Positions 39,120-53,840 of a stretch of DNA of 64,000 nucleotides are shown here, one piece after another. Source of the stretch: Stigmatella erecta (GTDB lineage: Bacteria > Myxococcota > Myxococcia > Myxococcales > Myxococcaceae); contig NZ_FOIJ01000001.1 of assembly GCF_900111745.1 (NCBI RefSeq), forward strand, positions 186,001 to 250,000. Direction: 5' to 3'. The notes under the pieces were generated by a model. The model did not search any database. It saw only the letters and a program-made list of their open reading frames with translations, and was not told the DNA's origin. Numbering within the stretch: position 1 is the first letter of the stretch; each line of letters begins with the position of its first letter. The translations under genes were made by a program, and so were the position numbers.

Positions 39120-39176
39120 GCCCATCGGGAAAGAAGGGGGCGCATCGTGGGGGGGCCGCGAAATGAAGGGAAAAAT

Positions 39177-39200
39177 CGCGGGCGTGTAACCACGCCCGCG
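39177..39200 (+). terminator. Perfect hairpin after the lipase gene
   Basis: CGCGGGCGTG (39177-39186) and CACGCCCGCG (39191-39200) form a 10-bp stem with a TAAC loop, about 57 bases after the lipase stop. The run of A residues just before it would give a T-tract on the minus strand. It therefore could act in both directions, although no minus-strand gene ends here. Confidence 0.6.
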
Positions 39201-39253
39201 GTCTTGCGTAGAACCCTTGTTCGCAGCGCGGCCCGTGCCGCAGGGAATCCGAC

Positions 39254-39886
39254 ATGTCCGTCCGCTCCGCCGTTCTGATGCTCGCCGCCGTGCTTCCACT
39301 GGCCGCGAACGCCCAAGCCATGCCCCCGGCTTCGGCCCAGACGTTCATCTTCAACGACGGACTCCACCGCGACACGGTCTCCTTCATGCTGGATGCCCCG
39401 CTGGAGGTCATCAACGGGCTGTCCAACCACATCCAGGGGGAGGTGGTGGTGCGGAATGGCAAGGCCACCGGGAAGTTCTCCGTGCCGGTCAAGTCGATCA
39501 AGACCGGCAACGAGACCCGGGATGGACACCTGCAAAATGACCGCTGGCTGGACGCGGCCAAGTACCCGGACATTGTCTTCGAGTTCAAGGACGTGGCGCT
39601 CCCGGGCGCGTTCGAGCCGGGCAAGTCCTTGAAGGTGCAGACGAAGGGCACGTTCACCGTCCACGGCGTGACGCGCGAGGAGCCCGTCGAGGTCTCCGCC
39701 TTCCTGTTCAAGGAGAGCGCCGAGACGAAACACCGGGCGCCAGGAGATCTGCTGCGCGTCCGCGCGAAGTTCCGCATTCCGCTCGAGTCCTACGGCATCA
39801 AGCGGACGGAGGCGTTGCTCCTCAAGGTTGGCGAGACCGCCGAGGTCTCCGTTGACGCCTGGGGATCCACGCAGTTCAAGCCGTAG
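39254..39886 (+). CDS. YceI-family periplasmic protein
   Basis: A 210-residue exported protein with signal MSVRSAVLMLAAVLPLAANAQA. YceI proteins are lipocalin-like beta barrels that bind polyisoprenoids or quinones. The family pattern is visible: DTVSFMLDAPLEVINGLSNHIQGEVVV, SIKTGNETRDGHLQNDRWLDAAKYPDIVFEFKDV, GTFTVHGVTREEPVEV, and a late IPLESYGI. The start ATG 39254 directly precedes the signal. A tiny Cys-rich lipoprotein gene starts 49 bases downstream on the same strand, probably on the same transcript. Role is inferred from the family only. Confidence 0.93.
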   Translation: MSVRSAVLMLAAVLPLAANAQAMPPASAQTFIFNDGLHRDTVSFMLDAPLEVINGLSNHIQGEVVVRNGKATGKFSVPVKSIKTGNETRDGHLQNDRWLDAAKYPDIVFEFKDVALPGAFEPGKSLKVQTKGTFTVHGVTREEPVEVSAFLFKESAETKHRAPGDLLRVRAKFRIPLESYGIKRTEALLLKVGETAEVSVDAWGSTQFKP

Positions 39887-39935
39887 TCCCCCCTCCATCG
39901 AAGTCACTTCAACGCAGTCTCGAAAGGAAACACCC

Positions 39936-40166
39936 ATGAACGTCAAAGCGCTGGCCACCCTCGTTGGAGCCCTCTCTCTCGGCTCGCTCGCCACCGGCTG
40001 TGCCTCCAGCAAGGCCGCGGGCAATCCGGGAGCAGAGTCCGCCGCCAAGGGGGCCGAGGCCTCTTGCAAGGGGGCTGAATCCACCTGCAAGGGCACGAAG
40101 GCCGCCGAGACTCCGGCGAAGGGCGCCGAGGGCCAGTGTGGTGAGGGCACCTGCGGCAATAAGTAG
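39936..40166 (+). CDS. Small Cys-rich lipoprotein with EGxCGEGxCG tail (bufferin/HvfA-like candidate)
   Basis: A 76-residue low-complexity protein. The lipoprotein signal is strong (LGSLATGC, lipid Cys C22). The mature part is Ala/Gly/Lys/Glu-rich with four further Cys: C44 and C51 in SCKG and TCKG, and C68 and C73 in the terminal EGQCGEGTCGNK. The tail matches the EGxCGEGxCG pattern known from HvfA-type metal-binding peptides, whose Cys can be modified by DUF692/MNIO enzymes. No such enzyme lies in this window. AAGGAAA precedes the ATG. It follows the YceI gene by 49 bases. It could also be a simple Cys-rich metal or redox buffer without modification. Confidence 0.8.
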   Translation: MNVKALATLVGALSLGSLATGCASSKAAGNPGAESAAKGAEASCKGAESTCKGTKAAETPAKGAEGQCGEGTCGNK

Positions 40167-40283
40167 CCTGGTGCTGTTCTCCTGCCCTGATGCAGGGCTC
40201 CACCCGGGGCGCTCGCCCGCGAGGGCATCTTCCCCTCGCCATACTGAGTCCGCACGGGGCGGGAGCGCCCTAGAGTAGGGATC

Positions 40284-41468
40284 GTGCCGAAGACGATTCC
40301 TCCCGCAGTCAAGGTGCCTGCCGAGCAGGCACGCGCGTTTCTTCTCAGCCAGCACGCCCTTGCCGCATCCGTGCATCCCCCGGGCGCCGAGGGTGTGCGC
40401 GCGCTCCTGCGCCAGCTGCGCCATATCCAGCTCGATCCGCTCGATGCCATCGGCACCAACGCGGACCTGGTGGCGCTCGCGCGAGTCGATGGCCTGGTGC
40501 GAGGCGACGTGTACCGTCACCTCTACCCCGGGCATGCCTTCGAGCATTGGGCCAAGGAGCGCTGCTTGCTGCCCGCCGATGCTTTCGCCCACTACCGCGA
40601 GCGGTCCCTGGAGGCCCCCTGGTGGCGCCATGCCACGCGGATCCAGCGGTTGCCCGCCGCCGTGCTGCGGGCCGTCCTGGAGGAGGTAGAGGCTCACGGC
40701 CCCTTGTCGGCCGCGGAGCTGACCGACCACGGTGCGGTGGAGCCCCTCGACTGGAGCGGGTGGAAGGGCACCGCGAAGGCCACCTCCATGGCCCTGGAAG
40801 TGCTGTGGACGCGCTGTGACATCGTCGTGTGCGGCCGGGGCGCTGGGGGCAAGCGGTATGACGTGCCGCACCGGGCCCTGCCGGAGGTGGCCCGGGTCTC
40901 CCCGGGGTACACCACCGAGGAAGGCTTCTTGCGATGGGCGCTCAGGGAGCGGGTGGAAGCGGCAGGACTCTTGTCACGCGGCGCCGGGGCACACTGGTCC
41001 ATGCTGTCCCCGGTGCGCGGCTCCGAGCTGCCGGACACGCTGGTGGCGGAAGGCCTGCTGGAGGAGGTGGTGTTGCCGGGAGCGTCCCGGCGTTACCTGG
41101 CTCCAGCAGGATTCCGCTCCCGGCCCGTGATGGCGCCGGACGCGCGGATGCGGATCCTCGGCCCGTTGGATCCCCTGCTGTGGGACCGCGCGCTGGTGAA
41201 ACAGCTCTTTGGCTTCGAGTACGTCTGGGAGGTGTACAAGCCCGAAGCGCAGCGGCGCTGGGGCTGGTACGTGTGCCCCTTGCTGCACAGGGGCCAGCTC
41301 GTGGGCAGGCTGGAGGCGCGCGTGAAGGAAGAGGTCCTGCACGTGGAGAAGCTGTGGCGGGAAAAGGGCGTGAAGTGGGATGACGCGGCGCTCGACGAGG
41401 CCCTGGCCCGGCATGCCAAGGCCTGTGGCGCGCGGAAGGTGCGCCGGCCCCGCGCCCGGGTAGGGTGA
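40284..41468 (+). CDS. YcaQ/AlkX-type winged-helix DNA glycosylase
   Basis: A 394-residue cytoplasmic protein of the HTH_42 (PF06224) family. Characterised members unhook interstrand crosslinks or excise bulky alkylpurines. The N-terminal motif QLRHIQLDPLDAIGTNADLVALARV contains the Q-x-D/Q catalytic region. YRHLYPGHAFEHWAKERCLLP and the downstream winged helices (GPLSAAELTDHG, WSGWKGTAKATSMALEVLWTRCDIVV) are typical. So is the final LGPLDPLLWDRALVKQLFGFEYVWEVYKPEAQRRWGWYVCPLL. The start is a GTG at 40284. It converges with the DUF3052-like gene (13-base gap). The exact lesion specificity is unknown. Confidence 0.92.
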   Translation: MPKTIPPAVKVPAEQARAFLLSQHALAASVHPPGAEGVRALLRQLRHIQLDPLDAIGTNADLVALARVDGLVRGDVYRHLYPGHAFEHWAKERCLLPADAFAHYRERSLEAPWWRHATRIQRLPAAVLRAVLEEVEAHGPLSAAELTDHGAVEPLDWSGWKGTAKATSMALEVLWTRCDIVVCGRGAGGKRYDVPHRALPEVARVSPGYTTEEGFLRWALRERVEAAGLLSRGAGAHWSMLSPVRGSELPDTLVAEGLLEEVVLPGASRRYLAPAGFRSRPVMAPDARMRILGPLDPLLWDRALVKQLFGFEYVWEVYKPEAQRRWGWYVCPLLHRGQLVGRLEARVKEEVLHVEKLWREKGVKWDDAALDEALARHAKACGARKVRRPRARVG

Positions 41469-41481
41469 ACGGGGCTCAGGC

Positions 41482-41796
41482 TCACTTCCCTGGGCGGAAG
41501 CGCATGGCGCTCCAGACGGTGTCGATCGCCACCTGGCGAATCCCCTGGATGCCTTGTTTCTCCAGGTGCTTCCAGAGCACGTCCCGGTTGAGATCCGTGC
41601 CCAGTTGCCCTGCCTTGGGGTAGGCCACCCAGGCGAGGCGGTCCTCCTTCGCGGCCTCGATGAGGGGGGCGCACTTCGCGTCCACCTCGGCGAGCGTCTT
41701 GACGAAGACGAGGAGGGCCTCCGCCTTGACGGAGGCCGTGACCGCGACGTCATCCAGGTCAACGTCCGGGGGCTTGCCCACGGCGCGGACCTTCAT
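41482..41796 (-). CDS. DUF3052-like protein, 5' end probably truncated
   Basis: A 104-residue product from ATG 41796. The C-terminal part matches DUF3052: ALLVFVKTLAEV, LAWVAYPKAGQLGTDLNRDVLWKHL, RQVAIDTVWSAMRFRPGK. The family consensus starts earlier (xLxLKxGMxV), and that sequence is present upstream of the ATG in the same frame as RRKLNLKDG. However, no ATG, GTG or TTG exists before a stop at 41851-41853. The high-GC reading frame ends near 41825, exactly where low-GC DNA begins. The true start seems to have been lost at the junction; a non-standard CTG start is the alternative. Function of the family is unknown. Confidence 0.7.
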   Translation of the reverse strand: MKVRAVGKPPDVDLDDVAVTASVKAEALLVFVKTLAEVDAKCAPLIEAAKEDRLAWVAYPKAGQLGTDLNRDVLWKHLEKQGIQGIRQVAIDTVWSAMRFRPGK

Positions 41797-41926
41797 GCCG
41801 TCCTTGAGGTTCAGTTTTCGGCGGAAAACAAGAAATACCAGTAGGTCTTTTTAAGAAAGTGAACAATCCCCTGCATAGCTCTCTTCTGGTGAGTCTCCTT
41901 TATCGAGGACATATCTGGGAGGCGGC

Positions 41927-42697
41927 ATGCAAAGTCGGATGTGGATGAGTGCGATGGTGGTACTCGTTTCAGCATGTGGCGGAGAAGTGACGCAGGAAGA
42001 GTTGGAACTCGGTTCCTTGAAACAGCGGTTAGAGCTGTTCCAATACAATGCCACTGAGACGAATACTGCTAGCAACACCAACTCGGCCACTCAGCCAATT
42101 GAGTTGGGTGTCAACGAAACAGTGATGATCGGCACTTGTGGGCTCAATGGTGCGGCTTCAGATCCCACGAACAACAATGTCGTCCGCCTCAAGAACCCAG
42201 CGGGTGTCGAGGTCACTTCTTGGGGAGTCTTCTCAAGCGGGTGCACCTCTTTTTCGCGTGTTTCTTACACGGCACCAGCCGCTGGAGTCTATTCTATCTG
42301 GGCAGGATGTTCTTCTTCGCAATCCTGCTCAGGAACTGTCAGCGTTTCCAAGCGTAAGGGACAAGTCACTTACAGCGCGCTCAATACGAATGGAGCTTTG
42401 CTGAACACCTACAACAAGCAGTATTTTTTCGATGGGGGCGATGTCATTCGCGTGAGTACCTGCACAAATAGCTCCTACGGTGCGTCGGTGACAAGTGGTG
42501 ACACCTTTCTGCGGCTCTTCAAACAGACAAGCACGAGCACTGGTTATACAGAGGTCGCCCTCAGCGATAATGCTGCGGGGTGTGGCACTGCATCGGAGCT
42601 GACCTACCTAGTTCCCTCGGCGGGTTACTATCAAATCCGGGCGGGGTGTGCAGGTAACTCTAGCTGCAACGCGACTTTCGTCGTCTATAAAGAGTAA
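41927..42697 (+). CDS. Lipoprotein with two tandem PPC-like beta-sandwich domains
   Basis: A 256-residue secreted lipoprotein of unknown function. The signal ends SAMVVLVSAC. Two homologous domains follow at about 52-145 and 160-255. Each runs from V[MI][IR][VI][GS]TC through [VF][VL]RL and SGC or AGC to SYTAP.AGVYSIWAGC or TYLVPSAGYYQIRAGC, and ends with a SC.[GA]T strand. This resembles pre-peptidase C-terminal (PPC) or related extracellular beta-sandwich domains, with extra conserved Cys that probably form disulfides. No catalytic part is present. Codon use is AT-richer than in the flanking chromosome. The ATG at 41927 is preceded by GAGGCGGC. Confidence 0.82.
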   Translation: MQSRMWMSAMVVLVSACGGEVTQEELELGSLKQRLELFQYNATETNTASNTNSATQPIELGVNETVMIGTCGLNGAASDPTNNNVVRLKNPAGVEVTSWGVFSSGCTSFSRVSYTAPAAGVYSIWAGCSSSQSCSGTVSVSKRKGQVTYSALNTNGALLNTYNKQYFFDGGDVIRVSTCTNSSYGASVTSGDTFLRLFKQTSTSTGYTEVALSDNAAGCGTASELTYLVPSAGYYQIRAGCAGNSSCNATFVVYKE

Positions 42698-42929
42698 AGG
42701 CTTTGCCTGAAACCTGTTCAGGTAAATAGCATTGCCATCTCCATGCTTGGAGAAAGGCACGTCAAGAAGGGCTCTTGCCGGACAGCCTCTTGGGCGGTGG
42801 AGCGTTCAGGGATAAGGGAATAGCCGAAGAGCAAAGCCTCGCATCCCTGCTGCGATGTGGGGCTGCTCGCAGAGCCTTTATCACCTTCTTGCCACATGTG
42901 GATAACAGAGCGCTTGGGAGAAAATTTTC
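42698..42929 (+). promoter_or_regulatory. Intergenic region within the island
   Basis: About 230 bases without a gene. A small hairpin (CCTGAA/TTCAGG around a 5-base loop, near 42709-42725) follows the upstream stop and may slow transcription. The segment 42890-42929 is AT-rich (TGTGGATAAC, GAAAATTTTC) and lies directly before the next start, so a promoter is likely there. No consensus boxes are convincing. Confidence 0.35.
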
Positions 42930-44408
42930 ATGAAACAGCTAGGATTGAGTGCTGTTGTAGGAATGGTAATGAGCCTATTGGGGGCATGCGGGTTGCCAGC
43001 CGAACCCCTTGTGCCGCAAGATACTCAGCTCCATTCGTCAAAGCAGCAGGTATTGGCAGACTGCCCCTACACGACGCCTGTCATCAACATGGACAAGGAA
43101 CTGGTCATCAAGGATCTCTCAGTCGTCAATGATCCTTGCAGGACGCAATTTAACGGATCAGGCTCTACCGCGTGCGTGGCTGCCATGAGAGGACACTGGT
43201 CCTTCGGCTATCTGGTTTCTCAGCTGGCAGGTAACAAAGGTCCAGCGGAGACATCCGTCTTCGTGCTCAATTGGTTGCGCACATGGGAAGTTGACCAGAC
43301 TGTGAACAACTTCTCGCTTCCAGCACGTCCAGGGATCACCTCGCTTGTTATTAATCCGTGGCGGCTCAAGAGCGGGTGCACCGAGACGGGGCCATGTACT
43401 TTAGACTTCAACCAAGCGCCTTTTCGGCTTCTAGCCATTGTTAACCGCATTGATCTTTCGGGTCCTTCTGATTTTTATTCTCCAAATACAGCCAGTCCTG
43501 GTGAGGTGCGCTTCGTCTTCGGCTTCCTCAATCCAGACAAGGTGACGGATAACGCCAGTGGCCAAGGTAAGCTCAATGCTACCGTCATCTTCGAATACAA
43601 GTTGTCTCCCACCCGGACGACTTTCAGTTGGGCGTCCAAATGGCACGCGTTGGGCGCGCTCTCTCTTAATACCGAAGCCTACAACCAAGCGCTTCAGTCC
43701 ATCACGGACACCATGGTGAGCTTTAATACTTTAGTGAATCCCAATGGCACTGCTATCAGCCAAGTGCGAACCAATGAGTCTGCCTTTGATACGGTTGTGC
43801 CTAAAAAGTGGGAGCTTCGTGAGCAGAAGCTGGCGTGCAGTGGCGGTAACTGCTCTCTTGTGCCGGATACCGTCAAGCTGACGCCTCAAAACAGCATCAA
43901 CCAAACTGTGGATCTGGATACTTACTTGCTTACTAACGCCTCTGCCATTGCGCGTGAGGATTTCAGCAAGATGCCCTCTCATTGGCTTGGCGGTGCTTCT
44001 CACTCATTTCCTATTCCTCAGGGCGCTCACATCTGGGATATGACGGGTGGTAGCTCTAACTCTAACTACACGCTCAATGGCGGTAATTTTGACCCGCTCA
44101 ATCGCCATTTATTTGCACTGTCCACATGCAATGGTTGTCACTATGCTGAAACGTTTACCTCGAACTTTCACATTCCGCCACGCTCGTTGAATGTTCCTAC
44201 CGCGCCGTCCAGCTTTGTAGGGGGGTCCTCGGCCTTGGAGCCCTCAACGGCAGCTCCCAATCAACCTGCCAATTATGCTTCACTCTCGGACCCTTCGGAA
44301 ACCACGAGCACGCGCGAATATAATGATGCATGGCGCCGTAAGTGCGAGTTGCAGCGCTTGCTGCATAACGTCTCGAATCCGTTGTTCCGCCAGAGCGGAG
44401 CACATTGA
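42930..44408 (+). CDS. Monoheme-type (CxxCH) lipoprotein of unknown function
   Basis: A 492-residue secreted lipoprotein (signal VVGMVMSLLGAC). It has no obvious enzyme domain. One c-type heme motif, CNGCH, lies at residues 400-404, followed by YAETFTSNFHIPPRS. Earlier conserved-looking stretches are VFVLNWLRTWEVDQTVN, PFRLLAIVNRIDL and EVRFVFGFLNP, then the VIFEYKL and WASKWHALGALSL region. Similar large lipoproteins with a single CxxCH recur in myxobacteria, but their role is unknown to me. It could be an electron-transfer or binding protein. Codon use is low-GC, as in the rest of the island. Another CxxCH lipoprotein lies 2 kb downstream on the opposite strand. Confidence 0.85.
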   Translation: MKQLGLSAVVGMVMSLLGACGLPAEPLVPQDTQLHSSKQQVLADCPYTTPVINMDKELVIKDLSVVNDPCRTQFNGSGSTACVAAMRGHWSFGYLVSQLAGNKGPAETSVFVLNWLRTWEVDQTVNNFSLPARPGITSLVINPWRLKSGCTETGPCTLDFNQAPFRLLAIVNRIDLSGPSDFYSPNTASPGEVRFVFGFLNPDKVTDNASGQGKLNATVIFEYKLSPTRTTFSWASKWHALGALSLNTEAYNQALQSITDTMVSFNTLVNPNGTAISQVRTNESAFDTVVPKKWELREQKLACSGGNCSLVPDTVKLTPQNSINQTVDLDTYLLTNASAIAREDFSKMPSHWLGGASHSFPIPQGAHIWDMTGGSSNSNYTLNGGNFDPLNRHLFALSTCNGCHYAETFTSNFHIPPRSLNVPTAPSSFVGGSSALEPSTAAPNQPANYASLSDPSETTSTREYNDAWRRKCELQRLLHNVSNPLFRQSGAH

Positions 44409-44471
44409 TTTATCGGCTGTCAGTGGTGGGTGCTAAGCGAGTGATTGACGGGTGTCTCTGAGGGATTGGGT

Positions 44472-46109
44472 ATGGGAAAAAATTCTAGATGTGAAATGCG
44501 CGGAATGTTGATGCTGCTCACGGGGGTGATGACGGCGTGCGTGGCAGGAGAGAGCGAGGTGGGGGGCATGGCCGTGACAGTGATGCCTCAGCAGGAAGTT
44601 CAATTGTCTCAAAGTGCGAGCAGTAACTACTTTCTTGCTACGGATAGCAGCACCTACTCGGCAGGTTCAGCCATCAATGTTGCTTGGTTCGCGCCAGCAA
44701 CTCATTCTGGAAGTGACTGGGTAGGACTTTTCAAGGTAGGCGATCCTGATTCAGCATACTTGTCCAAGAAGTACGTACCTAGTGGACAGTCGGGCCTGCT
44801 GACGTTTTCGGTGCCATCGCAGGGGGGCAATTACGAGTTGCGTTATCTGCCGCACCCCTCCACCCAAAGTATCAGCATCAGCAATGCCTTTGTGGTGAGC
44901 GCAACGGCGGGCACTGTTTTCCTGTTTAGCAATTATGAGGGTGGCACCTATAATCTTGTGGTGGATCAAAATCTGCCGAACATTCAGATTGGCATTGCTA
45001 CGTTCAAGCCTTCGAATATCACGCTCTCTGGTTCCTTTGTCGGCAATGTGAGTGCTGTTCGAGTCGTAGGCTACTACGCCAATCAATCAACGGTGCAAGG
45101 AGTGGATGCAAGCAAAGTGAAACTGGTTTCTTCTCCTGAACCCGTTTCACACAAGCAACCCTACGCCGACAATACGCGGCTCGTTTACTCCACTGGTGAT
45201 CGCGTCTTGTCGTGGATGTCGAAGGGCAGCAATTCGATGACTCAAGTCGAAGAGTACTTCATGTCGAAGTTTGGAGAGGTCTCTGTCCTGTCGCACATGA
45301 GCCGCTATGCTGCGTTCAGTGGAAACATCCCGTTTTCGGCTGCCAGGCTGAACATGGTGGTGGTCCGGGATACGGTAAATCTCGATTTAGCTGCGGCGGT
45401 GGGCCGTCCTTCGGGGGCAGTCACTCTCTCTGTAGACGTGAACGCCACCGTAGGGGCTACCTCGGCGCTTACTCCTGCGCTCACGACGGGCTCGCTCGCT
45501 GCGGGCTCCACCGTGCGCATCAATAATTACGCGAGCATTGTGGGGGCGGGAGGCGCGGGAGGTTCGGGTGGCAATGGTGGTAGTGGCGGCTGGCCTCGCG
45601 CCTGTGGCCGCAATGGCCTTGCAGGTGGAACAGCTCTCTTCCTGACGGTACCGGCTACCATCTCCAACCGCGGCAGTATCTGGGGAGGCGGCGGTGGGGG
45701 AGGGGGGGGCTCTGGCTGTAACAGCAACGCAGGTGGAGGCGGCGGCGCTGGCCATGTCGGAGGGGGGGGCGGAGCTGGCTTTAGCCAATTCAGCAATGCG
45801 GAGGAGCTGGCTTTCTGTGGTCAGGACAATGGTGTCCGCAGCGGTGTCCCGGGGGAGGCTGGTGGCACGGCTGGCGGGGGGGGCGGTAAGGAGGATGACT
45901 ACGACGGATATCGTTCCTACGACATGATTGGAGGTGACGGTGGCGGTTATGGGCAGCCGGGTCAACCGGCTGGTGCTTGTGGAAGCCTCGCTCCTTCTTC
46001 CGGAGGCTCAGCCGGCGCAGCCATCAAACGAAATGGCCATGTGGTGAACGTGCCCGACGGAATCTACGATACCGGAGCGGGACGCATCCGTGGTCCAGTA
46101 GGCTCATAG
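44472..46109 (+). CDS. Lipoprotein with polyglycine, phage-adhesin-like C-terminal domain
   Basis: A 545-residue secreted lipoprotein (signal LLTGVMTAC). Residues about 50-140 form a beta-sandwich with YSAGSAINVAWFAPATHSGSDWVGLF and FSVPSQGGNYELRY, as in SKICH-like domains. The central region is unassigned. Residues about 357-510 are Gly-rich runs (GGAGGSGGNGGSGG, a run of nine Gly, GGGGGAGHVGGGGGAGF) interspersed with ISNRGSIWG. This strongly resembles the polyglycine sandwich of phage tail-tip adhesins such as T-even Gp38. Those domains pack as polyglycine-II helices and present receptor-binding loops. The start ATG 44472 follows GAGGGATTGGG. A strong terminator follows at 46118. Confidence 0.82.
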   Translation: MGKNSRCEMRGMLMLLTGVMTACVAGESEVGGMAVTVMPQQEVQLSQSASSNYFLATDSSTYSAGSAINVAWFAPATHSGSDWVGLFKVGDPDSAYLSKKYVPSGQSGLLTFSVPSQGGNYELRYLPHPSTQSISISNAFVVSATAGTVFLFSNYEGGTYNLVVDQNLPNIQIGIATFKPSNITLSGSFVGNVSAVRVVGYYANQSTVQGVDASKVKLVSSPEPVSHKQPYADNTRLVYSTGDRVLSWMSKGSNSMTQVEEYFMSKFGEVSVLSHMSRYAAFSGNIPFSAARLNMVVVRDTVNLDLAAAVGRPSGAVTLSVDVNATVGATSALTPALTTGSLAAGSTVRINNYASIVGAGGAGGSGGNGGSGGWPRACGRNGLAGGTALFLTVPATISNRGSIWGGGGGGGGGSGCNSNAGGGGGAGHVGGGGGAGFSQFSNAEELAFCGQDNGVRSGVPGEAGGTAGGGGGKEDDYDGYRSYDMIGGDGGGYGQPGQPAGACGSLAPSSGGSAGAAIKRNGHVVNVPDGIYDTGAGRIRGPVGS

Positions 46110-46117
46110 GGGGTATA

Positions 46118-46149
46118 CGGAAGCGAGAACCTTCCTCGCTTCCGTTTTT
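46118..46149 (+). terminator. Intrinsic terminator at the end of the island's last gene
   Basis: CGGAAGCGAG (46118-46127) pairs perfectly with CTCGCTTCCG (46135-46144) around a 7-base loop and is followed by TTTTT (46145-46149). It lies 9 bases after the lipoprotein stop. This is the clearest rho-independent terminator in the window. Confidence 0.92.
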
Positions 46150-46284
46150 ACCGCTGGTTCAAATCCTGCCAGATCCCGGGTGATGGCGGCTTGGGCATTC
46201 CAGGGGAAGAGGGCGCTCAGCACGTCTGCATGCAGAACCAGAGCCAATCCCCCTCACCTGGATGTTTATGGCCGTCCGTCCTCG

Positions 46285-47298
46285 TCAGTTGTTGAGAGCG
46301 CCGCCGAGAATCCACGAGCGGATGAGGATCAGCTGGCCCGGGTTGTTATCGAAGTGAGCGGAGTTGGCGCCGCGCGGCATGCGGTTGCCGCAGGTGGTGC
46401 CTTCCAGCTTGCGGATCAGCGCCGAATTATCCGGATCATTGGGCAGCACCCGCTTGAGCGTGTTGCAGGCCGCGTTTCGATTGTCGACATTGACCAGGGC
46501 GGCGTAGCTGCTGCCCGCCGCGAGGCTCAGTCCGCCGGAGCTCCCGTGACATCCGGTGCAGAGGGTATTGGCGCTCCACACATTCTGCACGTCACTGTAT
46601 GCCGGCACGGTCACAGGCACGTTCACGGTGCGGACCACGGGGGCGGCCTTGCCGTCGGAGACGGACACCTCGAAAGTGAAGGACGTCTCCGTTCCCACTT
46701 GCGGAGAGAACCACTTCGCGCTCGTGCCCGTGGTGCCGCCCACGAAGGTGCCCTGCTGGGCGGGGGCCTTCTGCGTCCAGGTATAGGTGAGCGTGTCACC
46801 CTCCGGATCGGTCGCGGTGATGGAGAGGTCTCCCGTCGTGCCCGCCTTCAGCGTCGAGGGCGCGGTGATGGTGGTGGCCACCTCGGGCGGCAGGTTCTCC
46901 GGGACCACCGGAGCCACGGTGACGGTGACGGTGCCCTGCACGCTGCCGCCGTTTCCATCCGAGACGGTGACGCGCAGCGTGAAGGCGGTGCTGGCGGTCA
47001 CCGTGGGCGCCGTCCAGGTGGGGTTGGAGGCGGTGGTGCTGCTGAAAGTGCCCACGGGAGAGGCAGGCGACGTCTGCTCCCACGCATGGGTGAGCGTGTC
47101 CCCCTCTGGATCCGAGGCGGTCACCGACAGCGTCACGGCCGCGCCGGAGGAGACCTGGGTGGACTGAGCCGTGGGGCCGGTGAGGGTGGGGCTCTTGTTC
47201 TCAGCGGGAGGGGTGGGATCGTCTTCCCCACCGCAGCCAAACCCCAGCGAACCGGCCAGAACGACAAATGAGACAAGTGACAACAAACGACGATGCAT
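46285..47298 (-). CDS. Ig-domain lipoprotein with CxxCH heme motif
   Basis: A 337-residue secreted lipoprotein (signal LVSFVVLAGSLGFGC). Two Ig/PKD-like beta-sandwich repeats follow, each with a SVTASDPEGDTLTHAW or SITATDPEGDTLTYTW core and a F[TS].[RE]V.VSDG end. A C-terminal cytochrome-like domain carries CTGCH, followed by GSSGGLSL and a late MPRGANS stretch, which may supply the axial Met. It resembles the PSCyt-like single-heme domains common in myxobacterial and planctomycete surface proteins. It may move electrons or bind heme at the cell surface. ATG 47298 has GGAGGTT upstream. Composition is the usual high GC. Confidence 0.88.
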   Translation of the reverse strand: MHRRLLSLVSFVVLAGSLGFGCGGEDDPTPPAENKSPTLTGPTAQSTQVSSGAAVTLSVTASDPEGDTLTHAWEQTSPASPVGTFSSTTASNPTWTAPTVTASTAFTLRVTVSDGNGGSVQGTVTVTVAPVVPENLPPEVATTITAPSTLKAGTTGDLSITATDPEGDTLTYTWTQKAPAQQGTFVGGTTGTSAKWFSPQVGTETSFTFEVSVSDGKAAPVVRTVNVPVTVPAYSDVQNVWSANTLCTGCHGSSGGLSLAAGSSYAALVNVDNRNAACNTLKRVLPNDPDNSALIRKLEGTTCGNRMPRGANSAHFDNNPGQLILIRSWILGGALNN

Positions 47299-47447
47299 GG
47301 AACCTCCGAAAAACGGGCGGCGGCACCCTAAGCGCAGGTTCCAGGAAATTGAAGAAGAGTGAACACTTCCTGCTGCGAACCGGTGCCGCCACGCACGGAT
47401 TGCAACGTCCCATGTGTCGTTTTGCTGTCTCACTGGACGTGTAGGCG

Positions 47448-47481
47448 AAAATGCCTTGAGTCGTTTCACCTCAAGGCATTT
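47448..47481 (-). terminator. Intrinsic terminator of the RICIN/heme lipoprotein gene
   Basis: On the minus strand AAATGCCTTGAG (47481-47470) pairs perfectly with CTCAAGGCATTT (47460-47449) around a 9-base loop. The 3' arm runs into one further T, giving TTTT. It begins 26 bases beyond the stop at 47508. The 12-bp perfect stem makes it convincing. Confidence 0.82.
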
Positions 47482-47507
47482 CGGACGGTGTGTCGGTCCT
47501 GCCTGGC

Positions 47508-50500
47508 TCAAGGCCAGAGACGTTGCGTCCAGGCCCTCCACTGCTCGAGGCGCTGCGGCTCGCCTCCCATCTGAGCGACCTTCCAGAGGCCATACTGGTG
47601 GAGCTGTTCGGCCGTCGCCCGGCCATTCACCACGTTCATCACGTAATTGCCCGAGCTGGGCTGCGCGAGCGGCTTCTTGGTGGCGTCCACGCAGAAGGAG
47701 AACCCGGCGTAAGGCTCGCTCTCGCCCAGGTCCATGTTGGCGGGGTCGCACCGCCGCCACTTCTCGGGGGCCGTGCCGGTGAACAGGATGTTGAACTGAT
47801 TCATGGCCCCGTTGACCACCTTCAAGTGCAGGCCTGGCTGGAGCTGATCGAGCTGGCCGAAGCGGGACCTGCTGGTGCCCTGCGTCGTCGCCCGGTCGAT
47901 GAAGTTGACCGGCGTCAGGTGTTTCATGGCCTGGGCCCGGCTGAAGCGGCCGCGGTTGTTGATGAGGTTGCCGGTGTCGGTTGCCACGTAGAGGGGGATG
48001 TCGTTGTTGACGAACTGGGCCCCCTTGATGCGGGCCTGCAGCAGCCGGATGTGGCTCAGGAAGGCCGCATTCGCATGCGCTGGTGTCGAGGTGCCCACGG
48101 CGTCCGCCAGGACTTCGTCGAACCCGGTCAAGTAAGGCCAGTCCACCGAGAAGTTCACCCAGTCGCTCTGGGCTCCCGGGTTGATGGTGACCTGCATCTG
48201 GTACCAGATGTTGGTCCGGTAGTAGGAGCCCACGGTATTGGAGCGCTCCCAGGCCAGGTACCACTCCCGGGTGACCTGTCCCGAGGCGGTCTCGTCGGCC
48301 TGGTAGAGCATGTGCGGCGCCAGGAAGAACACGCTCACGGTGTTGAAGGGCCAGCCGCGCACTTCGCCCCGTCCCTTCCAGGTCTGGGTGGCGGAGTCGA
48401 AGGCGCCGATGAACCATTGCTGGTTGCCCTCGAGCCCGTACGTGTGGGCCCACTCCCACTGCTTGATGGCGTTCCAGTGCAGCATGCTCATGACGGCCCG
48501 CTCGATGAACGCGTTGACCGTGAAGGAGCCCGGATCGCCGGACGTCGTGCTGGAGGAGGCGCGCTGGGCCAGGAGGCGGGCGCCGGCCTGCGCGCCGTAC
48601 TCACCGGATTTGGCGACGTGGTTGCCGCGGCCGCCGCCCAGGAAGTTGTAGGCCTCCCAGCCCGAGGACTGGAAGTAGCCCTGGATCTGATTGCGCTCGG
48701 CCGGCGTCAGGTGGCTCCAATCGCCGTACTGGCCGTTGGGGTTCAGGTGGGCCTTGAGCCACGTGTCGATCCTGCGGGCGCTGGCAAGCGGGTCATGGCG
48801 GTTGCCCTGCGTCCACTGGGCTCCCGTCTCGAAGGAACCCCGGCTGTCGGCGCCGGTAGGCCACACGTCGAGCGGATGGAGGGTGGGCAGCCACGCGTTC
48901 CAATCCGGGTATTGCAGCGGCATGGCGCCTTCGCGGGCGTTCAGGGTGGCGTTGGCGTTCATCACCGCGTCGATGTCGGCCTGGCTCAGATTGAGGGGCT
49001 GGCCATCCAGGGGCTTGCCGAAGAGGGCCTTGACGGCCAGGGCGGGGCTTTCGAGCACGGCGCTCAAGCCGGCCCCCGCCGCCCACTCGATGATGGGCTT
49101 GCCATCCAGCCCCGGGCCGGGCTGGTAAGGCGGATTCCACGGCGCGGCCTGGGCCACGTGGGGGACGTTTCTCTGGCCGTAGCGCAGGTAGGCGGCGATT
49201 TGCTGGCCCTGCGCTTCGGTCAGGCCGTGGAAGCGCGAGCGCTGCACGATGGCGTTGTTGGAGTAGTTGAAATACTGCAGGTCGCGTCCATCGGTGGCGT
49301 GGCAAGACGCGCAGGCGGCTTTGATGGGGCGGTTGACGATGCTGGATTTGAGGAGCTTGCCCTGGCCGTGCCAGAGCGCCTCGCCGGCCGTGACGTCGGC
49401 ACTCCAGGTCCTGCCGGCCTGTTTCTCGGCCAGGATGTCGGCGTACTGCGAGGGATTGCTGGACTGAAGGGTGCCCTGGGCGTCTTGCAGCTGGAGCGCG
49501 AGGACGCGGTAGCCGTTGGACTCACCGTCGGTGCCGTTGAAGCGGAACTGGATGAGGTTGGACTGAGGGGCGGCCACGAGCCTCGCCTTGGCCGCGGCGT
49601 CGAGCACGAGGCTCATTCGGGTGGTATAGAACCCGCCGTGCGTCAGGCCGCCCTGGACCCGTTCGGCGTCGGCCAGCTTGACGGTGGCGTCGGTGATGTC
49701 GACCCAGGGGATGTTGCCGGCCTGGGAGGGGCTGACGCCGCCGAGCACGCGCACGCTGGCCTTGATCTTCACGGGCGGCTGGCTCGTCGCTTCGAACTCG
49801 GGGGCACCGAAGAAGGCACAGCGGTGGCATTGCCACCAGAGCTGGCTCACGCTGCTGAGCCTGCTGGCGTCCACCTGGAGACTTGCTTCCGCGATCTTGG
49901 GGGCCAGCGGGGAGCCATCGCTCAGGAGCTCGAGCGGGAGCCTCAGCGGGGGGCCTGACGGGGTGGGCGGGGGAGGGGGCTCCGATGCCGGTACCAGCCG
50001 CCATTGCTGGTTGGGCTGACCGTTGCCGCTGCAGTCCCACTGGTGAATCCCCCCGCCCACCTGGGTGCTGATGTCCTTCACGTCCATGCATTTGCCGCTG
50101 TGCACGGCCTTGAGCAGGTAGGCGTCGCCCACGGCGGATGCCGTGAAGCGCTGGTGGGCTCCCCCTGCGTAGGCCCACTGCTGGAGCAGGGCGCCGCTGG
50201 CCGTGGACTCAGCGGTCACGTCCAGGGTCAGGCCGCTGTGGAGGCTCTGAAGCTGGTAGGAGCCATTCGCCGCGGGCAGCACCTCGAAGCGCTGGTGGTT
50301 TTCGTTGGTACAGGTGCCTTGCTGGGCCTTGGCCCCTGCGGCCGCGCTGGCGCCCTCGATCTCCAGACACAGGCCGGAGTGCACCGGCCGCAGGCTGTAC
50401 TGGCCCAGCGCGAGGGCGCCGCGGCTGGTGCCACTCTGGGGATAGAGCAGGAACTGCTGCGCCGGCTGGCCGTCACAGGTGGCCTGTTGCAAGCCCGCGC

Positions 50501-51029
50501 CCGCCGCGGTGGAGCTCCCGGCGATGATCACGCACTTGTTGCTGCCTGCATTGACCAGGCTGTAGCGATTGCCCTGGCTGCGCCGCAGGAGGAAGCGTTG
50601 CGCGATGGAGCTGTTGTCGCTCCATTGCTGGATGACGGCACCGTCCGCGGTGGAGCCTCCATTCAGGTCGAGCGCGCGGCCTGTCCCCACGATCAGGAAT
50701 TTGTAGCCTCGGTCGGCGTCCAGGGTCACATCGAAGGTCTGGTTCGCGCCGTTGTTGCAGAGGGCCTGCTGCACCTTCCCGCCGTCGGCGGTGCCAGGGA
50801 CGGCATCCACGCAGTGGCCACTCAGGACACTGACGAGCACGTAGCGGCCAGCGGCCAGCGGCGGGTTGGCACTGGCGGCGAAAGGCATGACCTGGATGCC
50901 TTCCGCACTCGCTCCGTCCGGACTGTCATTGCCTCCACAGGCGGCCAGCAAGCCCATGAAAGTCAGCGCGGCCGTCGCGCACCAAGGGCGGAAGCCGCCC
51001 ACTCCTGGGTTTGATACCGAGGTTCTCAT
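47508..51029 (-). CDS. Large lipoprotein with two RICIN-type lectin repeats and CxxCH heme motif
   Basis: A 1173-residue secreted lipoprotein (signal LTFMGLLAAC). Residues about 58-345 carry ricin-B-type beta-trefoil repeats, recognisable by recurring LNGGSTADGAVIQQW, GLTLDVTAESTASGALLQQW, CMDVKD..QVGGGIHQWDC and QRF or QQW ends. These usually bind galactose-type sugars. A Pro-rich linker (SEPPPPPTPS) follows. The remaining 800 residues are unassigned, with a WWQCHRC cluster near 400 and a c-heme motif CASCH near 571, followed by ATDGRDLQYFNYSN. The closing part contains FTGTAPEKWRRCDP. A carbohydrate-targeted redox or heme protein is plausible; the reaction is unknown. Confidence 0.85.
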   Translation of the reverse strand: MRTSVSNPGVGGFRPWCATAALTFMGLLAACGGNDSPDGASAEGIQVMPFAASANPPLAAGRYVLVSVLSGHCVDAVPGTADGGKVQQALCNNGANQTFDVTLDADRGYKFLIVGTGRALDLNGGSTADGAVIQQWSDNSSIAQRFLLRRSQGNRYSLVNAGSNKCVIIAGSSTAAGAGLQQATCDGQPAQQFLLYPQSGTSRGALALGQYSLRPVHSGLCLEIEGASAAAGAKAQQGTCTNENHQRFEVLPAANGSYQLQSLHSGLTLDVTAESTASGALLQQWAYAGGAHQRFTASAVGDAYLLKAVHSGKCMDVKDISTQVGGGIHQWDCSGNGQPNQQWRLVPASEPPPPPTPSGPPLRLPLELLSDGSPLAPKIAEASLQVDASRLSSVSQLWWQCHRCAFFGAPEFEATSQPPVKIKASVRVLGGVSPSQAGNIPWVDITDATVKLADAERVQGGLTHGGFYTTRMSLVLDAAAKARLVAAPQSNLIQFRFNGTDGESNGYRVLALQLQDAQGTLQSSNPSQYADILAEKQAGRTWSADVTAGEALWHGQGKLLKSSIVNRPIKAACASCHATDGRDLQYFNYSNNAIVQRSRFHGLTEAQGQQIAAYLRYGQRNVPHVAQAAPWNPPYQPGPGLDGKPIIEWAAGAGLSAVLESPALAVKALFGKPLDGQPLNLSQADIDAVMNANATLNAREGAMPLQYPDWNAWLPTLHPLDVWPTGADSRGSFETGAQWTQGNRHDPLASARRIDTWLKAHLNPNGQYGDWSHLTPAERNQIQGYFQSSGWEAYNFLGGGRGNHVAKSGEYGAQAGARLLAQRASSSTTSGDPGSFTVNAFIERAVMSMLHWNAIKQWEWAHTYGLEGNQQWFIGAFDSATQTWKGRGEVRGWPFNTVSVFFLAPHMLYQADETASGQVTREWYLAWERSNTVGSYYRTNIWYQMQVTINPGAQSDWVNFSVDWPYLTGFDEVLADAVGTSTPAHANAAFLSHIRLLQARIKGAQFVNNDIPLYVATDTGNLINNRGRFSRAQAMKHLTPVNFIDRATTQGTSRSRFGQLDQLQPGLHLKVVNGAMNQFNILFTGTAPEKWRRCDPANMDLGESEPYAGFSFCVDATKKPLAQPSSGNYVMNVVNGRATAEQLHQYGLWKVAQMGGEPQRLEQWRAWTQRLWP

Positions 51030-51069
51030 GCTGCTGTCTCCCGGAAGTCTGAATTGAATTTCATCAGGA

Positions 51070-52608
51070 CTAAGGATGGGTATGAGTCACACTGTAAAAC
51101 GTGGCCTGCACGTAATCGGACGCAGAGCCAGTGTTGTTTTGATTGTAGACCCCTGCCTTGAAATACATGCTTGCGTTGTTGTACCCGGACTCCAAGGTGA
51201 AGGTCTTGGTGACGGCCGCGCGGCCTTGCGGTGTCACCTTGACCGTCATGGATTGTCCAACGACCTTGATTTCGTAGCTCCAGGTCTCGCCAAGCAGTAC
51301 TCCGTTCGAGGGGTTCAACTGGTTCGGCTCTCCAATGATGGGATAGTAGGTGGTGCTGTTCGAGGGGGTGTCGTGAGCGAAATAAATCGCTCCCCGCGAG
51401 TCGGAAGGGCGCTTGTGGAAGTACAGCCGGATGGGCTCGCTGTCCGGACCATGGATCTGACCGACGATCACCCGGCCGATTTTTCCACTCTCCCCGGTGG
51501 TGGAGACATGGTCCACCGTGAGCGTGGCCCTGAGCGTTCCATCCACGCCGCCCGCGGCGGCCTTGGCGGATGACGAGGACGTCGACATCACCCAATTGTT
51601 GGCGGGCGCGCTCGCGCTTCCCGAAGGAGCGAGCATCTCGCGCAGCTCTGTCCGGGAGTAATTGGAGTTGCTGGTCGTGTCGGCGATGTTGGGGCAGCGG
51701 AAGACCATGCCGCCCGTCACTGGGTCCGTGTAGAACGTGTCCTCCAGTTCGTAGCCGCGGCTCAGCGTGGACGCGCTGACCTCGCTGGCATCTGGAAGCG
51801 TGATCTTCCAATGCGAGAGATCGAAGTTGCCACTCGGAGGCGCTGAAGGATCGAGGCTCCCCGCTCCAATCACATACGTGCCAGTTTGCACTGGGCTGGG
51901 CGACAGGCTGCTCTGGTATGCGATTGCCTTCAACGTGGCCGTCGTGCGGAGTGTGAGGGGGCCAGTGTAGAGAATGCCGGTGGTGACGGTGGGAGTGCTG
52001 CCATCGGTGGTGTACCGGATCGAGGCTCCGGCGGTGGTGGAGCCGAGGATAACGGTCTGCGCGCTGGAGTAGGTGCCGGGAGGAGGGCTGAAGGTGGGCG
52101 CCGCTACCTGGTCAACCGTGCCGGTCTGGCCCCACAGCTCGGTCTCGGTGATGCTGTTCCAACCGTTTCCGGAGCTGTTGCCGTGTCCCACGATCCGGAT
52201 GTATCGGGCGTTGGTATCGGCGAAATCATAGGTTTCGAGCTGGGTGGTGGTTCCGCTGCTGATGCGGCGGTTGAGCAAAGCCGTCCAGGGGCCACTCGTG
52301 GAGGCACCGGCGAGCACGTCGAAGACCGTCGTGCGGTTGTTGCCCTGGTACCAGGCGATCTTGATGAAGTGAACGCTCTGCGGGGTACCGAGATCGAAGG
52401 TGATGTGAGCCCCATCGTCCTTGCCTGCCCAGCGCGTGGACAGCTCCTCATCGACCGCGTTGGCAGGAATGGCGTTGTTCGTCACGTCATAGGTGCTGGC
52501 GGTGACCGCGGAGCCCGGAACAGAGAGTTTCGAGGCCTGCTGAGCAAAGGCCTCGGCGGTTGCGAGGAACGAGAAGGCGAGCGAGGGCAGTACGCGCTTG
52601 AGGTTCAT
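51070..52608 (-). CDS. Alginate lyase, polysaccharide lyase family 7
   Basis: A 512-residue secreted enzyme (signal MNLKRVLPSLAFSFLATAEAFAQ). A discoidin/F5-8C-like domain (about 30-165, AVDEELSTRWAGKDDGAHITFDLG) is followed by a chitobiase-C-terminal-like module (about 170-245, PPPGTYSSAQTVILGSTTAG). The catalytic PL7 jelly roll (about 260-510) shows all three signature motifs: RTELREM near 318, QIH near 384, and YFKAGVYNQ near 481. PL7 enzymes cut alginate by beta-elimination, so the protein probably attacks bacterial or algal alginate, for instance biofilm of pseudomonad prey. It lies 41 bases downstream of the RICIN/heme lipoprotein start, on the same strand, so it is transcribed first. 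Confidence 0.95.
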   Translation of the reverse strand: MNLKRVLPSLAFSFLATAEAFAQQASKLSVPGSAVTASTYDVTNNAIPANAVDEELSTRWAGKDDGAHITFDLGTPQSVHFIKIAWYQGNNRTTVFDVLAGASTSGPWTALLNRRISSGTTTQLETYDFADTNARYIRIVGHGNSSGNGWNSITETELWGQTGTVDQVAAPTFSPPPGTYSSAQTVILGSTTAGASIRYTTDGSTPTVTTGILYTGPLTLRTTATLKAIAYQSSLSPSPVQTGTYVIGAGSLDPSAPPSGNFDLSHWKITLPDASEVSASTLSRGYELEDTFYTDPVTGGMVFRCPNIADTTSNSNYSRTELREMLAPSGSASAPANNWVMSTSSSSAKAAAGGVDGTLRATLTVDHVSTTGESGKIGRVIVGQIHGPDSEPIRLYFHKRPSDSRGAIYFAHDTPSNSTTYYPIIGEPNQLNPSNGVLLGETWSYEIKVVGQSMTVKVTPQGRAAVTKTFTLESGYNNASMYFKAGVYNQNNTGSASDYVQATFYSVTHTHP

Positions 52609-52649
52609 GCCCCCGGATTATACTGTAATTCCAGCAATACGGGTGAGCG

Positions 52650-53840
52650 TTAGCGCAGCGTGTCCAGTCCGGCGAAGAACCGGTCGAGATCCTCGGACGT
52701 GTTGTAGTGCAGCAGCGAGGCCCGGACAGCCCCATCGGGCATGAGCCCCAGCGCTTGTGCGGCCAGGGTGGCGTAGTAGTGGCCCGCCGCCACCGCGACG
52801 CCATTCTGGCCGAGGTGCTCTGCCACCGCGCGAGGGGAGACGCCTGGGATGTTGAAGCAGAAGGTGGCCACCCGCCCCTGGGGCTCCCGGGGGCCATACA
52901 GCTGGATGCGCGGATGGCGCAGCAGGCGCTCCAGCGTGGACTCCAGCAGAGGACGCTCCAGGCTCTCGATGCGGCGATAGGCCTGCTCCAGCCCGGCCCG
53001 TCCGGTCATCCCGTCACCCAGTACCTCGTACAGGTAGCGCAAGGCGCCCAACCAGCCCGCGAGGCCTTCGTGGTTGGCGGTGCCGGGCTCGAACTTCTGG
53101 GGGCTGTCGTCGGGGACGAACCACAGCTTGTCCGCCGGGAGGCGCGGCAGCAGCTCCTGGCGGATGTACATGCAGCCCAGATGGGGGCCGAAGACCTTGT
53201 AGGGCGAGAACACCGCGAAGTCCGCGTCCCATGCCTTCACATCGGGCAGCAGGTGAGGGCTGGAGTGCACCGCATCGAGGATGATCCAGGCCCCCACGGA
53301 GTGCGCGAGCCGCGCGGCCTCGGCGGTCTCCGGGGTGGTGCCCACCGAGTTGGCGGCGGCCGTCAGGGCCACCAGCCGGGTCAGGGGCGTGAGCAGCGCC
53401 CGCAGGTCCGCGAGCTCCAGCCGGCCCTCGGGCCAGCGGGCCTTCCAGAGCTTCACCTCCACCCCTTGCGCCTCCAGGGCTCGCCACGGGCTGGCGTTGG
53501 ACTCGTGCTCCAGCTCGGAGACGATGATGTGGTCTCCCGGCTGGAACAACCGGCTGAAGGCCCGCCCGAGCTGGAAGGTGAGGGAGGTGGCGCTGGTGCC
53601 GAGGATGACTTCCCCAGGCTCGCAGTTCAGGAAGTGGGCGGTGGCGGCGCGGGCCTGGGCCTTCAGCTCGGTGGCCACCCGGGACGCTGGATAGGGTTGG
53701 CCGACATTGCAGCTTCCCTGGGACAGGAATTGGGAGATGGCCTCGATGGCATGCGTGGGCACCTGCGCTCCCGCGGCGTTGTCGAGGTAGCTGAAGCCGG
53801 ACCGCAAAGCGGGAAAGTGCTGGGAGAACGTGAAAGTCAT
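52650..53840 (-). CDS. Class V aminotransferase, cysteine-desulfurase-like
   Basis: A 396-residue PLP enzyme of the SufS/CsdA-like branch. Features are YLDNAAGAQVPTHAIEAISQFL, GTSATSLTFQLGRAFSRLF, IIVSELEHESNASPWRALE, AWIILDAVHSSPHLLPDVKAWDADFAVFSPYKVFGPHLG (the Lys in SPYK is the PLP ligand), and a C-terminal domain ending with PGVSPRAVAEHLGQNGVAVAAGHYYATL. The usual active-site Cys loop before the C-terminus is not evident. Desulfurase activity is therefore uncertain, and a selenocysteine-lyase-like or other lyase role is possible. The start ATG 53840 gives a normal N-terminus; an upstream in-frame ATG (53855) adds five residues. It is divergent from a TonB receptor gene. Confidence 0.9.
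   Translation of the reverse strand: MTFTFSQHFPALRSGFSYLDNAAGAQVPTHAIEAISQFLSQGSCNVGQPYPASRVATELKAQARAATAHFLNCEPGEVILGTSATSLTFQLGRAFSRLFQPGDHIIVSELEHESNASPWRALEAQGVEVKLWKARWPEGRLELADLRALLTPLTRLVALTAAANSVGTTPETAEAARLAHSVGAWIILDAVHSSPHLLPDVKAWDADFAVFSPYKVFGPHLGCMYIRQELLPRLPADKLWFVPDDSPQKFEPGTANHEGLAGWLGALRYLYEVLGDGMTGRAGLEQAYRRIESLERPLLESTLERLLRHPRIQLYGPREPQGRVATFCFNIPGVSPRAVAEHLGQNGVAVAAGHYYATLAAQALGLMPDGAVRASLLHYNTSEDLDRFFAGLDTLR

Follow-up and report, generated by a model that had tools for sequence, protein, structure and literature searches.

A low-GC islet of three predicted lipoprotein genes gained by insertion in a predatory myxobacterium

The window that we analysed, a stretch of 64 kb, is part of contig C1 of a 9.2-Mb myxobacterial genome (G000). 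Between two resident genes on the minus strand lies a block of DNA of low GC content that carries three genes and an intrinsic terminator, all on the plus strand. The features are given below in coordinates of the window; L065 denotes the corresponding locus in G003, another genome of the same genus.

41482..41796, minus strand: resident small conserved gene; its native start, MSLSK, is removed and the frame is left from an internal ATG
41811..41816, plus strand: TCAGTT in the native flank at the left border; the same 6 bp recur at the right border, which may reflect microhomology
41818..46284, no strand: acquired low-GC islet, in place of 58 bp (L065 8237-8294) of the G003 empty site
41927..42697, plus strand: gene 1, predicted lipoprotein of 256 aa with two similar Cys-containing halves, PPC-like
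42930..44408, plus strand: gene 2, predicted lipoprotein of 492 aa with CNGCH at residues 400-404, from a multi-phylum family without a Pfam model
44472..46109, plus strand: gene 3, predicted lipoprotein with a beta-sandwich N-terminal part and a Gly-rich, tail-fibre-like C-terminus (a longer frame starts at 44445)
46117..46145, plus strand: intrinsic terminator after gene 3 (11-bp stem, -26.5 kcal/mol, z -4.4)
46285..46290, plus strand: TCAGTT at the right border (native flank), including the stop codon of the next gene
46285..47331, minus strand: resident PKD/Big_9 lipoprotein gene with CTGCH, the right neighbour, which adjoins the small gene in G003

Composition and borders of the islet

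The islet, 4,467 bp long and 54.7% GC, differs substantially from the DNA around it. GC content calculated per kb drops from ~69% to 52-54% between 41.8 and 45.4 kb. The mean GC of the islet is 0.547, but is 0.691 ± 0.027 for a background of 3,405 windows of equal size from 864 kb of contig C1 (z about -5.4), and its tetranucleotide distance (0.274) is greater than that of each of 1,704 background windows from the same 864 kb. The original prediction had placed a low-GC region at 41824-46280; indeed, its composition is extreme by both measures, all three ORFs are open, and those limits lie no more than 6 bp from the borders (41817/41818 and 46284/46285) that we set from the empty site in G003. 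DNA of about 70% GC had also been claimed for both sides, which agrees with the ~69% background, but the right flank has only 63-66% GC for its first 2 kb.

The AT-ending codons ascribed to the three genes are likewise evident, with a GC3 of 0.582, 0.579 and 0.588 for genes 1, 2 and 3, respectively, compared to 0.84-0.91 for the neighbouring genes. That the three genes have this GC3 in common suggests one source and one event. The higher overall GC of gene 3 comes only from its glycine-rich C-terminal half; GC3 does not differ between its two halves. Contig C1 holds two more low-GC islets of similar depth (~54-56% GC), at 651.5-655 kb (L195) and 668-673 kb (L196), and thus such islets are not rare here; one of these two encodes a kinase/ATPase-type protein, a cargo different from that of the islet at 41818-46284.

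An empty site in G003 and the polarity of the event

The 4,467 bp of the islet correspond to only 58 bp in G003. On both sides of it, the DNA of the two genomes is 90-94% identical, with window positions 41476-41817 aligned to L065 7895-8236 and 46285-47372 to L065 8295-9387. The left junction falls inside codon 5 of the small conserved minus-strand gene, whose MSLSK has been replaced by islet DNA, while the right junction coincides with the stop codon of the PKD/Big_9 lipoprotein gene. The N-terminus SL[AS]KKLNLK of the small gene is present in all 24 other homologues, from several genera, and is missing only in the window. Since the junction clips the start of a conserved gene, the islet was gained here and not lost in G003.

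Nor do the same genes occur throughout the genus, the pattern that had been named beforehand as contrary to acquisition. Among six other genomes of the genus, including G003, G005 and G006, gene 3 is found in none, and genes 1 and 2 are represented by distant paralogues only, in loci of about 65-72% GC. The empty site, the clipped start of the neighbour and the single foreign composition together support the proposal of an acquired cassette of surface proteins, and we are highly confident that the low-GC block was gained here by insertion.

A variable zone extends beyond the islet, from 39126 to 53230 of the window, and synteny with G003 resumes near 53.2 kb. A YceI gene and a small lipoprotein gene (39254-40166) are missing in G003, where a 1-kb gene (L065 6848-7867) separates alkZ from the small conserved gene; in place of the lectin gene, G003 has other genes, IS66 and the end of a contig. 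Clustered between 42930 and 51029 are three predicted lipoproteins that each have a CxxCH and belong to unrelated families: gene 2 (CNGCH), the PKD protein (CTGCH) and a ricin-type lectin protein at 47508-51029 (CASCH).

Three predicted lipoproteins

The products of genes 1, 2 and 3 carry the lipobox-like motifs VSAC, LGAC and MTAC, respectively, and at the level of motifs all three are lipoproteins, as had been proposed; MTAC is atypical, and gene 3 orthologues have LLAC, ALAC and LAGC. The three products would be lipidated and are most likely located at the surface. The strong terminator described at the end of the cargo is also real, with its 11-bp stem at about 46117-46145.

Gene 1 is similar to beta-sandwich domains of the PPC type, although its match to the PPC domain PF04151 (16 bits, E 0.022) is below the curated Pfam cut-off of 25.9. 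Short full-length orthologues with 42-59% identity are found in several genera, some of them in low-GC patches with a GC3 of 0.64-0.72 and others with a GC3 of 0.81-0.90; no relatives were found in viral contigs.

The C-terminus of gene 3 is 40% glycine over residues 366-510. Residues 317-551 match the tail-fibre family phrog_11439 with an E-value of 2.4e-23, a score that glycine-rich sequence can inflate, and there is a weak match (E 0.049) to gp38 of phage S16, in which the polyglycine sandwich is believed to form the tip that binds the receptor (PMC6851490). The AlphaFold2 model of gene 3 is modest overall, with pLDDT under 50 in the C-terminus, and the Ig/FnIII-type matches that Foldseek reported are valid for the N-terminal beta-sandwich part only. 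Full-length orthologues (52-64% identity) are present in three genomes (G126, G108 and G017), and fragments of the C-terminal module are found in other genomes; among 50,697 phage records there was no match. Gene 3 shares with S16 gp38 and the tail-fibre adhesins of phrog_11439 the many Gly-rich motifs of its C-terminus and the profile match, but differs in being a bacterial lipoprotein with beta-sandwich domains; it has a lipobox, and the islet around it has no phage genes. Gene 3 would probably project a Gly-rich adhesive tip in the manner of a tail-fibre adhesin.

In G108, a genome from the genus of Corallococcus terminator, relatives of genes 1 and 3 stand side by side in a further region of reduced GC. 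This arrangement suggests that the pair travels from genus to genus as a unit and that gene 2 is a separate passenger. As genes 1 and 3 are next to each other outside this islet too, gene 1 is likely to encode a binding partner of the beta-sandwich kind.

Gene 2 had no match in Pfam or PHROG, and nothing near a cut-off in NCBIfam, yet it belongs to a large family. Full-length relatives with 48-51% identity are found in Archangium lansinium, Corallococcus terminator and G116, and relatives with 32-39% identity in Planctomycetota, Verrucomicrobiota, Acidobacteria, Bacteroidota and Gammaproteobacteria, mostly in metagenome-assembled genomes. A scan of genome contigs with the gene 2 sequence alone returned nothing, but the same scan with the gene 2 alignment returned 245 relatives. 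The family (loci L211-L290) has four copies in G000. No relatives were found in plasmids, and one, of 33% identity, was found in viral contigs (L210, IMGVR_UViG_3300000976_000137); that contig might represent bacterial DNA that was binned as viral.

A single CxxCH is present in each of the 80 gene 2 homologues that we collected, and its residues C400, C403 and H404 do not vary among the 35 homologues that were aligned. A CxxCH in an exported protein is the mark of c-type heme proteins, and gene 2 has both the lipobox and the invariant motif; we predict from its sequence that gene 2 is a mono-heme c-type protein. The claim that there is no enzyme among the three products is thereby made doubtful. 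As a passenger, gene 2 would carry one covalent heme for redox or small-ligand chemistry.

The fold of gene 2 gave weaker indications. Its AlphaFold2 model (pLDDT 80, pTM 0.85) had nothing at E ≤0.1 in a Foldseek search of the PDB. With a structural aligner (VIA), the top ranks were cytochrome c'-beta (Z 3.9) and cytochrome P460 (Z 3.6), both low Z. An hhalign comparison with 13 P460 members (PF16694) gave a probability of 5.8% and aligned the CxxCH stretch only, which does not support P460 kinship. A match of the gene 2 profile to cytochrome c555 among sequences of solved structures (E 1.5e-5) is likewise taken to reflect the CxxCH only, as no single stretch passes on its own. Gene 2 is like the c-type cytochromes and the P460/c'-beta superfamily in its one CxxCH near the C-terminus and its weak top structural rank, but unlike them it has no Pfam match, and the profile alignment covers the CxxCH stretch alone. 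The P460/c'-beta likeness is a weak, model-based lead only.

Route of arrival, competing readings and function

We find no integrase or transposase at the islet and no tRNA in the 64-kb window (ARAGORN); the nearest tyrosine integrase on the contig is about 293 kb away. The absence of mobility genes had been correctly foreseen, as had the absence of repeats at the ends, at least for long or att-like border repeats. The integrase, tRNA target and att repeats of integrase-borne genomic islands are accordingly all lacking. The 6-bp TCAGTT found at each edge would be consistent with microhomology-type recombination, but a match of this length is no proof and may be due to chance. The islet did not match the IS66 genes near the G003 site. 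A tRNA-like motif, GGTTCAAATCC, near 46154 was rejected, as ARAGORN reported no tRNA in the window or at the sole similar place in G005. The 33 bp at 46154-46186, at the right end of the islet, are 88% like the 3' end of a short G005 gene (L322) that looks like a lanthipeptide precursor, and this likeness is possibly due to chance.

We infer both the type of donor and the route of recombination as follows. The 4.47-kb islet, which is species- or strain-specific, would have come in a single event and in one piece from a donor whose GC is clearly lower. No donor of matching composition was found; the closest homologues share 50-65% identity and are situated in DNA of higher GC. The DNA would have arrived by uptake or transduction and then been joined by illegitimate (microhomology-type) recombination, which is probable given that there is no mobility gene or att site. 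In the process, the 58 bp between two minus-strand genes were replaced and the 5' end of one of them was clipped.

The three genes might instead be old residents of relaxed composition, deleted in G003 and in the other relatives; in favour of this, there are homologues across the family, some with lowered GC3 too. However, a deletion in G003 could not recreate the SL[AS]KKLNLK start that G003 shares with 23 other homologues, and the genus is without a close homologue of the islet genes. The junction in the conserved gene excludes this history unless G003 regained an intact gene by recombination, and of the readings considered we give it the least credence. A more serious competitor, although still unlikely at about one chance in four, is that the islet is the remnant or cargo of a mobile element, whether a phage-like moron, an integrative element or a plasmid, that has lost its mobility genes, with gene 3 as a captured part of a tail fibre. 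The tail-fibre match of gene 3 speaks for such an origin, as do the variability of the adjoining zone and the IS66 genes and contig end close by in G003. Opposed to it are the lack of any integrase, transposase, tRNA or att repeat, the failure of gene 3 to match any of the phage records and of gene 2 to match plasmids, and the fact that gene 3 encodes a complete lipoprotein and has orthologues in myxobacteria.

A group of lipoprotein genes in DNA that varies between strains also recalls the SitBAI cassettes of myxobacteria, in which the SitA toxins, lipoproteins of the outer membrane, are disseminated by mobile DNA (PMC5562445), and the islet might be a toxin cassette directed at kin or competitors through outer-membrane exchange. 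All three genes do have a type II signal sequence with a lipobox, at motif level only. However, we found none of the C-terminal toxin domains, mostly nucleases, of those systems (Pfam, NCBIfam and PHROGs, in which distant toxins can be missed), no downstream immunity gene lacking an export signal and no sitB-sitA-sitI layout; instead, three products with export signals are followed by a terminator. We consider this reading highly improbable, if slightly less so than that of old residents.

We return to the reading that a foreign block was inserted and brought with it an adhesive pair and a heme protein, which, taken as a whole with both its history and its function, has a probability of roughly 0.55. 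The functional part on its own is tentative, at about one chance in three: genes 1 and 3 would form an adhesive pair, accompanied by a heme protein. A role in contact with prey or kin, as the original prediction suggested, is possible and is pointed to only by the adhesin-like C-terminus of gene 3. More speculatively, and with little probability, genes 1 and 3 could together be a mobile surface adhesin of two parts, in which a beta-sandwich lipoprotein is joined by a lipoprotein whose polyglycine tip was domesticated from a tail fibre. Such an adhesin would spread from one myxobacterial genus to another out of a low-GC reservoir and alter the range of cells or prey to which the host binds, while gene 2 would contribute a heme protein at the surface, from a large family not yet described and with perhaps a distant likeness to P460.

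The islet is a polarised example of an already known kind, as such gene islets are common in these bacteria. It shares low GC, sharp borders, an empty site in a sister genome and the lack of an integrase with other small strain-specific islets without mobility genes, but differs from them in that a conserved neighbour is clipped, which fixes the polarity, and in a cargo of lipoproteins only. It is thus a clean case, with both an empty site and a polarity, of gene gain without a mobility gene in a predatory myxobacterium. It also brings to light two little-known kinds of protein, a lipoprotein of bacteria whose Gly-rich end resembles a phage adhesin, and a family with CxxCH that is found in many phyla and is absent from Pfam. 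If the surface role is true, gains of this type would be one way in which the cell-surface repertoires of sister species diverge.
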